A stretch of DNA of 64,000 nt from positions 1 through 64,000 of the forward strand of contig CANEFS010000003.1 of NCBI GenBank assembly GCA_947426865.1, given 5' to 3'. The stretch is from an uncultured Coriobacteriaceae bacterium (GTDB lineage: Bacteria > Actinomycetota > Coriobacteriia > Coriobacteriales > Atopobiaceae). This document shows, in pieces, positions 13,861 to 20,612 of this stretch. A model generated the notes under the pieces. That model was not told the DNA's origin and did not search any database. It was given only the letters and a program-made list of their open reading frames with translations. How positions within the stretch are numbered: the stretch's first letter is position 1; every line of letters starts with the position of its first letter. The translations under genes were made by a program, and so were the position numbers.

Positions 13861-14185
13861 GTCTTTTCTTGTCCGCGTACTCTTTTAGGGCGCACTCTAT
13901 CTCTTCTCGAATGCTTGCCGGTTTTGCATGAATCGTTTTTGGCGTTGCAAAAAAGATAATGTCACAGGATTCTTGCACGCAAGAAGTGCCGCGCACTGCC
14001 TCGCGCAAGAGGCGCTTACAACGGTTCCTATACACCGCGTTGCCGAGCCTTTTTGCTGCAACGAAGGCGTATTGAGGTTCTCCTGCGTCTTTAGAAAAAT
14101 ACGAAATTGAGACGAGGGATCGCTTGATGCGCGTCCCCTTTTTGAAAGCCCTCTCGAATTCCCTTCTCTTTTTAAGGGAAAGCAT
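13844..14185 (-). CDS. rnpA: Ribonuclease P protein component
   Basis: The protein subunit of RNase P helps the RNA subunit mature tRNA 5' ends. The RNR signature is present as [18 protein letters not shown], and the N-terminus [16 protein letters not shown] is typical. Length is 113 residues. Its ATG overlaps the rpmH stop codon by one base (TAATG), which implies coupled translation. It overlaps yidD downstream. Confidence 0.95.
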
Positions 14186-14319
14186 TAGACCGTTAGGCGC
14201 TTACGTCCTTTTGCGCGACGACGGGCCAAAACTGCACGACCGCCTTTAGTGGCCATCCGGGAACGGAAGCCATGACATTTGGCTCTTTTGCGTTTGTTCG
14301 GTTGGTACGTTCTTTTCAT
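14185..14319 (-). CDS. rpmH: 50S ribosomal protein L34
   Basis: A 44-codon gene encodes the canonical L34 sequence, beginning [20 protein letters not shown] and ending GRKRLTV. The ATG is at 14319, preceded on the minus strand by AGGAGAAAAAA. It is the first gene of the rpmH-rnpA-yidD-yidC-jag operon. It marks the edge of the origin region and diverges from the gene before dnaA. Confidence 0.97.
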
Positions 14320-14418
14320 TTTTTTCTCCTGCTATATAACCCACAGCAAAAGCTCTATCTCATCATTTTTATCGAGAAGAGCCTCCGCTGGACTACTCAA
14401 TCAAATGAAGGACTGTAA

Positions 14419-14447
14419 ATTGTAGGGGTTTTTCCGCATTTTGTCCA
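14419..14447 (-). promoter_or_regulatory. Sigma-70-type promoter of the rpmH operon
   Basis: On the minus strand TGGACA (14447-14442) and TACAAT (14424-14419) are separated by exactly 17 bp. The -10 box lies about 100 bp upstream of the rpmH start. Spacing and match are good for a housekeeping promoter. Confidence 0.7.
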
Positions 14448-14612
14448 AACTTTTAACAAAGAAAACATCTCGCGAACCCTTTTAGAGCTCCTTTGACTTC
14501 CCTTGTAAGTTCCTCCCAACCTTTTTCCTCTTCTCATTTCTTCCGAGAGAAACTTTCACACCGTTATCAATTTCTTTGGAGTTTTTGCTTTCTTGCAATT
14601 TTATTTCATCAG

Positions 14613-14632
14613 TTTTCAACAGCTTTTCTACA
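14613..14632 (+). other. DnaA-box-like nonamers, left origin segment
   Basis: TTTTCAACA (14613-14621) and TTTTCTACA (14624-14632) lie 2 bp apart in an A+T-rich stretch. They differ by two bases each from the classic TTATCCACA box. TTTTCAACA recurs at 15648 (minus), 15698 and 17630, always outside genes. They are candidate DnaA sites of a bipartite origin around dnaA. Confidence 0.45.
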
Positions 14633-14761
14633 AATGTTAAAAACTTTCTTTCAAGAAACTTTTTTCTGTTTTTCTTACTTTTTTGTTCAAAAGTTTTGAA
14701 AAATGAAGTAAAGTAAATTCCCTTTCGAAGAACCTTTCTTTTTTAAAAATGAGGAGTTTTT

Positions 14762-15628
14762 GTGGTAGAAGTTGCAAACACAAACGAAAAGAGGCGCGCA
14801 AAAAGCGCCAGCGCGACAAGCCACACATCTTTGCAACCGGCCTGTTCTTGCCGTATCGCTTTATACGACGATCCAACCTCCTCACCTCAAGTTATCGAGG
14901 TATCGCCGCAGGAAACGAAGGTTTATCTCGACGAAGTAACGCAAAAAACGATATCGGCGCTTCGCGAATTCAATTCAGAAATCCCTTTCATGGTGGTGCG
15001 CGAGTGTGTTGAAAACCTTATCCACGCTCACTTTCAAACGCCCACCATCTCCATTTTGAACAAGGGAAAGATGATTCGTTTTTCCGATCAAGGCCCCGGT
15101 ATCCAGAAAAAAGAGGAGGCGCTGGAGTTCGGCACGACCACAGCCACAGAAGAAATGAAGGCCTACATCCGAGGCGTGGGCTCTGGGCTTCCTATCGCAT
15201 CTCAGTACATGCAAGACAAGGGCGGCTACCTCTCGATTGAAGACAATTTGAACGCCGGTTGCGTTATTACTTTGGGTTTTTCCGAGAAAACCCCCTCAGA
15301 GAACACGGAGACCCCCACAAAAACACAGCAAACAACACATGACAACACCGAAGAAAGCATCCAACCGAAAACTTACCAAAACACCCAAAACGAATACGAC
15401 ACAAATTCTTATCAGCTTCACGAAAAAGAAAAACAAGCCATTCTTCTTTGTATGACGCGTGAAAAAATTGGACCCACCGACCTTGCCAACCTTTTTGGGC
15501 ACTCTCTTTCAACCTGGACAAGGACCCTTCAATATCTAGTAGATGAGGGACTTCTTAAAAAACCCTCCCACCAGCAGAAATATTTCTTAACCACACTTGG
15601 CAAGAAATATGCAACCCACTATATATAG
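14762..15628 (+). CDS. GHKL ATPase domain fused to winged-helix DNA-binding domain
   Basis: The 288-residue protein has a GHKL/HATPase_c domain like that of anti-sigma kinases. The N box is RECVENLIHAH, G1 is FSDQGPGIQ, and G2 is RGVGSGLPIASQYM. No histidine phosphoacceptor domain is seen. After a Thr/Asn/Gln-rich linker (about residues 175-215), the C-terminus (KQAILLCMTREKIGPTDLAN, then TRTLQYLVDEGLLKK) reads as a winged helix-turn-helix. The start is a GTG at 14762 after TGAGGAG-like bases. It sits alone between rpmH and dnaA, inside the probable origin. By context it may be a regulator of transcription or of replication initiation; no specific function can be assigned. Confidence 0.75.
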   Translation: MVEVANTNEKRRAKSASATSHTSLQPACSCRIALYDDPTSSPQVIEVSPQETKVYLDEVTQKTISALREFNSEIPFMVVRECVENLIHAHFQTPTISILNKGKMIRFSDQGPGIQKKEEALEFGTTTATEEMKAYIRGVGSGLPIASQYMQDKGGYLSIEDNLNAGCVITLGFSEKTPSENTETPTKTQQTTHDNTEESIQPKTYQNTQNEYDTNSYQLHEKEKQAILLCMTREKIGPTDLANLFGHSLSTWTRTLQYLVDEGLLKKPSHQQKYFLTTLGKKYATHYI

Positions 15629-15647
15629 TAGGGTTAAAAAATCATTT

Positions 15648-15706
15648 TGTTGAAAACTCGACGAAGTTTTCCACATTTTAACGAATTCTTTTTAAAGTTT
15701 TCAACA
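15648..15706 (+). other. oriC: DnaA-box-like cluster and A+T-rich region upstream of dnaA
   Basis: The 223-bp gap before dnaA holds TGTTGAAAA (15648-15656, minus-strand box), TTTTCCACA (15667-15675, one mismatch to the classic box) and TTTTCAACA (15698-15706) within 60 bp. They are surrounded by T/A-rich sequence that could unwind. This is the best single candidate for the origin core and for DnaA autoregulation. The exact limits cannot be set by eye. Confidence 0.55.
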
Positions 15707-15851
15707 TTTTTTCAGAAATCTCACCAACCTTTTTATTTTTTGTGTGTACAATGAGTCCCCCTTTTAGAGGTTATAAACACTCTTCGATCGAATTTCTGCC
15801 TCTAAATCCAAATTAAATTAAATTACTTACCACGCTTTTGGGGGATGTTAG

Positions 15852-17441
15852 ATGACGGTACCTGCAACTTCAGAAGAGATGCTTCTTTGGGAAGATGCCT
15901 TTGATATCTTGAGTTCTCAAGATCTATCCGAGCAGCTTCTTAGCATGCTTAAAGCCTGTAATCCACAGGAAATTTTTGAGAATACCTTGGTAGTTGAGGC
16001 TCCTTCTGGTTTTGCGCAACATATTATTGAGGGAGAGGCTGAAATAATTGAGGGTGCTCTTTCAAAAGCCGCATTTCAACCTCTTCACTTAGAAGTTATT
16101 TACAAACCCCGCCAAGAAAAAGAAGTAAAAGAAACTCAAAACGACCAAATAAAAAATACAACTCAAACCTCGCAAAAAACTAGCTCCATACAAAAAAAGG
16201 AAACACAAAATACAAATCAGGCAAAAGCAGAGAAAAAAAAGGGAGTGGAAAAAACAAAAACTTCCATTTCTTTTCAAGAACTCTCTTCTCTTCCTTCTTT
16301 AAATAAGAAAAACTCAGCACAAAGCTCCTCACAAAAAACTACGCAAGTAAAAAGGGTTAAAAATCCTCTCGTTGAAGAGGTTTCCGAATACGACGCTCTT
16401 CTCACTTTTGACACGTTCGTAGAGGCTGACGAGAATCGTTTTGCCCTCCAAGCCGCAAAGCAAGTTGCAAACGGCATTTCTCAACAATTCAATCCGCTGT
16501 TTATTCATGGATCTTCAGGGCTTGGAAAAACACATCTTTTGCGAGCAATTCAAAACTACATTGGCACTAACGACTCGGAACGCCAATGCTTATATCGTAT
16601 TGCTAGTGATTTTATTTCCGACTACACAAACGCTATGAAGGAAAATAAAAAGCGCGACGACAATGTAGTCGGAGAAAACCTCAAACAGAATTATCACAAC
16701 ATCGATGTTTTGATTTTAGATGATATTCAAAATATTAGAAAAGCCCAGCATACAATGGATTTTTTCTTTGAGACGTTTGAATATCTCGTCAGTCAAGGAA
16801 AGCAAATTGTCCTCGCTGCAGATGAGCCACCTTCAAACCTTGGTATGCCAGAGCGTATTGAATCGCGTATAGGTTCGGGGTTGTCCGTCTCGATTGAAAC
16901 ACCAACGCTTGAATTTAAGCGCGTCCTTGTGACTACTTTCTACGATCGTTTTAAAAAGGAAGGTGCCACAGGAACGCTCACAGAAGATGATTTAATCTAC
17001 ATTGCCGAGCAATCCGGTGGAAATATTCGCACGATTCGCGCATTCGTTCAAGAGTGTCTTTTTAAAGCATCGCAATACGAAGCACTCGGAGAAGAGATTA
17101 CCCAAACCGACATTGCAAAGTGTGCAAGTGAGCGCTGGCAAAAAGAAGGCCGCATCATCACAATTGATGACGTGCAAAAATTCATTCAAAAACAATTCAA
17201 TATTTCTCGAGCTGACCTTATCGGCTCAAAAAGAAATGCGGAGCTTAAGCTTCCTCGCCACATTGCGATATGGTTATCTCGAGAAGTGACTGACCAAACG
17301 TTAGAAGAAATCGGAAAACACTTTGGTGGAAGAAGCCATGCAACCATTAAGCACTCGATTGCTTGGGTAGAAGAGACCTCGGAAAATGATCGCGTTTTAT
17401 ACGATCGCTTGCAATATTTAAGAGAACGCATCGGCGGATAA
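15852..17441 (+). CDS. dnaA: Chromosomal replication initiator DnaA
   Basis: This AAA+ initiator binds DnaA boxes and unwinds the origin. Walker A is IHGSSGLGKTHLLRAI, Walker B is VLILDDIQNIRK, and the sensor region is ESRIGSGLSVSIETPTLE. Domain IV has the DNA-binding signature GGRSHATIKHSI. At 529 residues it is longer than most, because domain II (about residues 90-170) is an expanded Lys/Thr/Gln/Ser-rich linker. The ATG at 15852 follows GGGGGATG. The gene is markedly A+T-rich compared with dnaK or clpB. It is followed by dnaN after a 303-bp gap. Confidence 0.96.
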   Translation: MTVPATSEEMLLWEDAFDILSSQDLSEQLLSMLKACNPQEIFENTLVVEAPSGFAQHIIEGEAEIIEGALSKAAFQPLHLEVIYKPRQEKEVKETQNDQIKNTTQTSQKTSSIQKKETQNTNQAKAEKKKGVEKTKTSISFQELSSLPSLNKKNSAQSSSQKTTQVKRVKNPLVEEVSEYDALLTFDTFVEADENRFALQAAKQVANGISQQFNPLFIHGSSGLGKTHLLRAIQNYIGTNDSERQCLYRIASDFISDYTNAMKENKKRDDNVVGENLKQNYHNIDVLILDDIQNIRKAQHTMDFFFETFEYLVSQGKQIVLAADEPPSNLGMPERIESRIGSGLSVSIETPTLEFKRVLVTTFYDRFKKEGATGTLTEDDLIYIAEQSGGNIRTIRAFVQECLFKASQYEALGEEITQTDIAKCASERWQKEGRIITIDDVQKFIQKQFNISRADLIGSKRNAELKLPRHIAIWLSREVTDQTLEEIGKHFGGRSHATIKHSIAWVEETSENDRVLYDRLQYLRERIGG

Positions 17442-19994: not shown

Positions 19995-20612
19995 ATGGAG
20001 CTGCGTGATAAAAAAGAAATGAGCATTAAGGATTTGGTGGCGCGCCAAACCGATGCTCTTGGCACCCTTCAATCAAAAAAGCTGAAAGGGCAAAAAAGCG
20101 CAGGTTTTGTTTGGAATCAAATCTGTGGAGAAATAGGCAGAAAACACACAATAGGTCTCTTTTTAGAAGAGTCCAAACAAAAGACGGGACAAATTACACC
20201 CGCCCCTAAAGAAAACAACCTTCCCATCCTTCACGTCTATCTTGACTCTCACGCCCTCATTCAAGATTTCTCAACTGACTTGCCCGTTTACCAAGCAAAA
20301 ATGGCACAAGCCGGTCTCCCTGTTAAAAAGATTGTTTTTCAACTTTCAAAAAAAGCAGGACAAACAAGGCGTGTAAATGTAGAGGAACATCAGTTGTCGG
20401 CGACAAATACAAGATCTAACACTCAACCAATAAACCCTCAAGAGGAAAAAATTCCGTTGAGCGAGCTCCCTCAACTCACCCCAGAAGACGCAAAAAAAAT
20501 CCAGAAAACAATCAAGCACTTGCCACCAGAACTTCAAAAGACAGCAGTGTCTGCCATGTCCTCATCGATGCGGCGAGAAAATTATCGCAAAAACCAAAAA
20601 AATCCCGCCTAA
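19995..20612 (+). CDS. DUF721/DciA-like protein
   Basis: The 205-residue protein sits directly after recF, where Actinomycetota usually encode a DUF721 (DciA-like) protein, a predicted partner of the replicative helicase DnaB. The region VWNQICGEIGRKHT followed by ILHVYLDSHALIQDFS matches the family pattern of a KH-like fold. The C-terminal ~80 residues are Lys/Pro/Gln-rich and probably flexible. Sequence evidence is modest and the assignment rests partly on position. The gyrase genes that often follow here are absent. Confidence 0.65.
   Translation: MELRDKKEMSIKDLVARQTDALGTLQSKKLKGQKSAGFVWNQICGEIGRKHTIGLFLEESKQKTGQITPAPKENNLPILHVYLDSHALIQDFSTDLPVYQAKMAQAGLPVKKIVFQLSKKAGQTRRVNVEEHQLSATNTRSNTQPINPQEEKIPLSELPQLTPEDAKKIQKTIKHLPPELQKTAVSAMSSSMRRENYRKNQKNPA

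Follow-up and report, generated by a model that had tools for sequence, protein, structure and literature searches.

A conserved GHKL ATPase–winged-helix gene between rpmH and dnaA in Coriobacteriia and other Actinomycetota, a candidate regulator at the chromosomal origin

The window analysed here, a stretch of 64 kb, carries at 14762–15628 (+) a gene for a protein of 288 aa, which combines a GHKL ATPase domain with a C-terminal winged helix (hereafter the GHKL gene and the GHKL protein). The reading frame, taken from the ORF list and backed by orthologs, starts with GTG, and GAGGAG at 14751–14756 precedes this start. As the marker map shows, the gene lies between rpmH, its divergent neighbour at 14185–14319 (−), and dnaA, located on the same strand at 15852–17441 (+). 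The latter encodes 529 aa and was identified from the ORF list, Pfam and locus comparison. The spacer between rpmH and the GHKL gene covers 14320–14761 and that between the GHKL gene and dnaA covers 15629–15851. The original prediction had placed a GHKL ATPase–winged-helix gene between rpmH and dnaA, and both the domain assignment, on the ORF, the HATPase_c match, the winged-helix matches of orthologs and an AlphaFold2 model, and the position were confirmed. Further downstream, an ORF of 205 aa follows recF at 19995–20612 (+); it had no Pfam match at E ≤ 0.01 and could be DciA, judged by its place, which for dciA is described in PMC5109545.

Residues 77–173 of the window protein (14990–15280, +) matched the Pfam domain HATPase_c above the cut-off (32.8 bits, E = 1.1e-7), and PF02518 was matched in all 35 orthologs in the Pfam search, which places the protein in the GHKL/HATPase_c superfamily. 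The motifs of the ATP site are an N box with E81, N85 and H88, a G1 box D109-x-G-P-G113 and a G2 box G138-x-G-x-G142. Among 123 sequences, Asn85, His88, Asp109, Gly111, Gly113, Gly138 and Gly142 were present in all 123, and Glu81 and Gly140 in 122. Because the ATP site is conserved, nucleotide binding by the GHKL protein is likely.

The winged helix comprises residues 222–286 (15425–15619, +). The C-terminal 65 residues of the window protein alone gave weak winged-helix matches in Pfam, with HVO_A0261_N at E = 3.7e-6 falling short of the cut-off, while in the ortholog set HVO_A0261_N was matched in 27 and HTH_IclR in 26 of the 35 proteins at E ≤ 0.01. AlphaFold2 modelled residues 221–287 as three helices, a strand and a last helix, with 10-residue mean pLDDT values of 76–91; the whole-model pLDDT was 56.1 and the GHKL part was poor because the alignment held only 6 sequences. 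The family matches of the orthologs and the local model show that a winged-helix domain is present, and the protein probably binds DNA through it. Mean identity among the 123 orthologous sequences was 52% in the ATPase domain and 38% in the winged helix, whose presumed recognition-helix region depends on the lineage (TWSREL, TAYRDL, SSTYVTL). A low-complexity linker joins the two domains and is far longer in some relatives. At the N-terminus, most orthologs of the window's family carry a conserved short motif (M..DFYPFVE) and other families carry MKSFF or MKAFY; the window protein is without it. It is possible that this is a linear motif for a partner.

The window's own genome, a draft assembly of 1.04 Mb in 29 contigs, had no match at E ≤ 1e-3 apart from the GHKL gene itself. 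Within the class Coriobacteriia, 271 of the 296 sampled genomes matched at E ≤ 1e-3; a profile of 35 sequences failed to confirm seven weak ones among these, with E values of about 1e-4 to 1e-3, so that strong matches remain in 264 of 296. The profile check covered the 7 weak matches and 20 of the 25 non-matching class genomes, and returned 0 of 27 at 1e-10. A profile search of Actinomycetota at E ≤ 1e-15 was positive in 157 of 396 sampled genomes, 119 of them outside Coriobacteriia, in 21 families. Beyond Actinomycetota the distribution was sampled by a single peptide-pattern scan of genome contigs, and its five matches were all records of Olsenella, Atopobiaceae or Coriobacteriaceae, Olsenella itself belonging to Atopobiaceae (Coriobacteriales, Coriobacteriia). 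The gene is thus kept in many deep-branching Actinomycetota, a broader range than the original prediction supposed. A local insertion in this genome was ruled out by the wide occurrence of orthologs at a nearly fixed place. A phage or plasmid origin was also rejected, as there was no plasmid match and no relative among viral contigs.

The surroundings of the gene were read for 123 distinct sequences, 85 from the class and 38 from the 119 genomes outside it. The order rpmH (−), GHKL gene (+), dnaA (+) was complete in 102 of the 123. In nine, dnaA was downstream without rpmH in the locus; in eight of these the contig or the fetched stretch ends there, and in L108 the space was present yet rpmH was not found. 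Seven had rpmH upstream on a contig that ends ahead of dnaA. A further three had dnaA 10, 43 and 63 bp downstream, though partial gene alignments led to their being flagged as far. In L107 the contig stops 220 bp past the GHKL gene and rpmH was not seen. In one genome (L049:3406-5805) the intact GHKL–dnaA pair is inverted as a block, with rpmH on one side and dnaN on the other. The survey of position suggested along with the original prediction therefore found no relative with the gene in an unrelated place: in none of the 123 sequences was it seen away from both rpmH and dnaA, L107, at its contig end, showing neither.

Outside the window's family, the GHKL gene mostly either overlaps dnaA or stops no more than 50 bp from it, and co-transcription is therefore likely at these loci. 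The spacer measures 56–330 bp in the window's family and 223 bp in the window; all spacer lengths are approximate because the start codons of the relatives and of dnaA were set by a simple rule, which also gave L089 a spurious spacer of length 0. In most relatives a dnaA operon probably starts with the GHKL gene. Distances between GHKL proteins correlated with those of the neighbours YidC (r = 0.906, 91 loci), Jag (0.84, 70 loci), DnaN (0.783, 49 loci) and DnaA (0.776, 113 loci), as expected for inheritance together with the neighbourhood.

Thirty-two of the 296 class genomes were without the GHKL gene, namely the 25 non-matching genomes and the 7 with unconfirmed weak matches. When 20 of these 32 were checked, 13 were also without a dnaA match in the assembly, one had a contig that starts within dnaA, and six (L123–L128) had rpmH, DnaA boxes and dnaA with no trace of the GHKL gene. 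Frequent loss as a reading of the 32 of 296 was set aside, given the 13 assemblies without dnaA and the one cut contig. Since the six genomes keep the neighbours without the gene, it can be lost and is not needed everywhere, and these genomes count against an essential role. As natural knock-outs they offer a useful comparison. Among 20 negatives checked from the wider phylum, 19 have dnaA with no GHKL gene within about 1.5 kb on each side.

These comparisons bear on two other explanations of the gene. Gene order at oriC changes slowly, so that position says little about function, and the GHKL gene might be a conserved neighbour that is irrelevant to the mechanism; the rpmH–rnpA–yidC and dnaA–dnaN–recF orders were themselves conserved throughout the mapped loci. 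However, six genomes dropped the gene and kept its neighbours, yet it persists with an intact ATP site in the 264 class genomes with strong matches, and we judge an irrelevant neighbour the least probable explanation of those weighed here. Alternatively, the protein may regulate other genes or processes, such as the cell cycle, repair or the envelope, with its seat in the dnaA operon tying its dose to replication and its winged helix acting elsewhere. The winged helix does resemble those of ordinary transcription regulators (IclR, MarR, Csa3-like), and the loss of the GHKL gene in some genomes with dnaA fits as well. The tie to dnaA, however, holds across the 21 families outside the class and is tighter than a trans-acting gene requires, and a regulator of other genes is unlikely, though the most probable of the alternatives.

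DnaA-box-like sites were found on both sides of the gene, as originally predicted: at 14613–14621 and 14624–14632 in the spacer towards rpmH, which is the probable main oriC box region, and at 15648–15656 (−), 15667–15675 (+) and 15698–15706 (+) in the spacer towards dnaA. Near the locus, TTTTCNACA has sites at 14613, 14624, 15007 (inside the gene), 15648, 15667, 15698 and 17630. The whole 64 kb holds 9 sites against 3.9 expected, a modest enrichment in that 4 of 100 shuffles reach 9. Boxes on both sides are a trait of the window's family, for which 30 loci were kept as non-redundant. In these, TTTTCNACA occurred 47 times in 11.1 kb upstream of the gene (4.24/kb), 35 times in 3.5 kb of GHKL–dnaA spacers (9.96/kb), 10 times in 29.9 kb of the gene (0.33/kb), and 4 times in 45.7 kb of dnaA and beyond (0.09/kb). 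The classical DnaA box TTWTNCACA, counted with some duplicate loci included, was found 115 times in 47.4 kb of rpmH–GHKL spacers (2.43/kb), directly ahead of the gene, 12 times in 87.1 kb of the GHKL gene (0.14/kb) and 4 times in 6.9 kb of GHKL–dnaA spacers (0.58/kb). A common 9-mer, TTTTCAACA, was present in 19 of the 30 non-redundant loci of the window's family (0.3 expected) and in 7 of 9 loci of another family of the same order (0.2 expected). GC skew within the window did not show a distinct reversal at the locus, so the assignment of the origin rests on the boxes and the gene order.

Across these 30 loci, the window's family has a shifted form of the DnaA-box-like repeat, TTTTC(A/T)ACA. 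Its DnaA proteins carry GR(S/T/K)HAT in the recognition helix, as opposed to GRDHTT or GRDHST, in 20 of 20 readable loci (L169–L183 are among the family; L181 was unreadable). Shifted boxes also occur in a second family of the order, yet its 2 readable loci keep GRDHST, and a strict tie of the recognition helix to the box type is weakened for this reason.

The GHKL protein might also act as an orisome factor and not as a transcription factor, binding the box region or DnaA and aiding or blocking DnaA assembly or unwinding. In favour of such a role, the gene adjoins the box cluster across the examined families, and in the window's family boxes flank it on either side, but it has been lost where the boxes stay, and we regard an orisome factor as improbable.

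Promoters and operators were searched in the same loci. A promoter-like site directed towards rpmH (TGGACA, 17, TACAAT) was located by a promoter scan at 14419–14447 (−). Near-consensus promoters (TTGACA, 16–18, TATAAT or TACAAT) facing rpmH were present in 74 of 82 non-redundant spacers (4.6 expected), in stark contrast to those facing the GHKL gene, which were present in 11 of 82 (4.8 expected). Hence there was no hint that rpmH needs the GHKL protein as a regulator. Promoters facing dnaA between the GHKL gene and dnaA were seen at 2 of 82 loci (0.7 expected). A consensus promoter facing dnaA was likewise missing from 19 of 20 spacers in genomes without the GHKL gene. The lack of a consensus operon promoter was dropped as a sign of regulation, because it is common to genomes without the gene and is uninformative. 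A k-mer enrichment search of the loci gave no convincing operator other than DnaA boxes; the enriched words were DnaA-box-like sequences, ribosome-binding sites, the rpmH promoter and a few that were unplaced.

The two domains, the intact ATP site, the inheritance together with the neighbours and the nearly fixed place between the box cluster and dnaA were all observed at this locus and its relatives, the place holding across much of Actinomycetota. From these features we propose, with a probability of roughly 0.55, that the GHKL protein is an ATP-binding and DNA-binding regulator whose gene normally leads the dnaA operon at the origin of the chromosome. Position and anatomy make dnaA and oriC the leading candidate target, although location alone is no proof. 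The original interpretation, a protein that could sense nucleotide state and act on dnaA, rpmH or the origin, is reasonable and is supported in part. Binding or hydrolysis of ATP by the GHKL domain would alter dimerisation, and the flexible linker would then bring the winged helix to a site in the neighbouring oriC or operon promoter. The GHKL protein could in this way tune its own transcription and that of dnaA, and perhaps the loading of DnaA on the boxes, with the result that initiation would be coupled to the nucleotide state. More tentatively, and at somewhat less than even odds, the protein may represent a new class of replication-initiation regulator, in which a GHKL ATP switch is combined with a winged helix in a leader of the dnaA operon, ancient in Actinomycetota, that conveys the nucleotide state to initiation. 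DnaA regulation is mainly understood in E. coli and B. subtilis, and we know of no DnaA regulator for bacteria carrying the GHKL gene. A gene that sits beside oriC, has kept its ATP site intact and probably encodes a DNA-binding domain makes a concrete candidate for a missing regulator and, if the proposal is true, would link nucleotide state to initiation where this gap exists.

The GHKL protein was compared with known families. Among the models listed, no NCBIfam model matched the window protein above its cut-off, and searches of the open literature, including for the 3lmm-type family, gave nothing recognisably on this gene, although such absence is not proof that it is unpublished. The best solved relatives by profile were a PhiH1-repressor-like protein, sporulation kinase B, Csa3 and MutL, each matching one domain at E values of 1e-4 to 1e-3. 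MutL was matched over about 50 residues around the N box with 22 bits against a cut-off of 180, far short of the full N-terminal ATPase module and the C-terminal dimerisation/endonuclease domain that mark MutL. Sporulation kinase B, a sensor histidine kinase, shares HATPase_c and gave the best single-domain profile match (2e-4), but proteins of the window type are without a HisKA or phospho-acceptor domain and without a sensor part; no DHp/HisKA match was found with Pfam in 35 members at E ≤ 0.01.

SpoIIAB/RsbW and RsbT have one GHKL domain of similar size, and the anti-sigma F model was weakly matched in 11 of the 35 orthologs (E ≤ 0.01). We also take the DQGPGI and GVGSGLP segments of the GHKL protein to resemble RsbT. 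The protein might accordingly be a serine/threonine kinase of this kind that phosphorylates a partner, its winged helix serving as an address tag. SpoIIAB, RsbW and RsbT are not known to carry a winged helix and are encoded with sigma-factor genes. In contrast, the GHKL gene is flanked by rpmH and dnaA, and genes for sigma factors, anti-anti-sigma factors or STAS proteins were not beside it in the marker maps. The anti-sigma SpoIIAB/RsbW models did not match the window protein at E ≤ 0.01, and none of the models listed reached its cut-off. The catalytic Glu of GyrB, MutL and Hsp90 also lies four residues N-terminal to Asn, as Glu81 does before Asn85, and E81 fits hydrolysis equally well as transfer. 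We consider a kinase quite improbable.

Csa3/CasR proteins likewise join a nucleotide-binding sensor domain to a C-terminal winged helix, the winged helix being the matching part, but their sensor is a CARF domain in place of GHKL, and no CRISPR context was seen in the mapped loci. The top Foldseek match was 3lmm (DIP2311; E = 4e-6, TM 0.38, rmsd 11), and the Foldseek ranks are weak evidence because the GHKL part of the searched model was poor. DIP2311 is a GHKL and winged-helix protein whose relatives have the arrangement AlbA_2–HATPase_c_4–winged helix (COG2865), and it resembles the window protein in having a GHKL fold followed by a winged helix. It differs in that AlbA_2 and HATPase_c_4 were unmatched in all 35 orthologs (E ≤ 0.01), which sets the GHKL protein apart from the COG2865 type. 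No curated family covers the GHKL protein. The view that HATPase and winged helix are an unusual combination has to be qualified, since DIP2311 appears to share the pairing, albeit on the strength of a weak model. If the regulator reading is right, the GHKL protein would share its point of action with Hda, YabA, SirA, Soj and DiaA/HobA, none of which, to our knowledge, is a GHKL protein.
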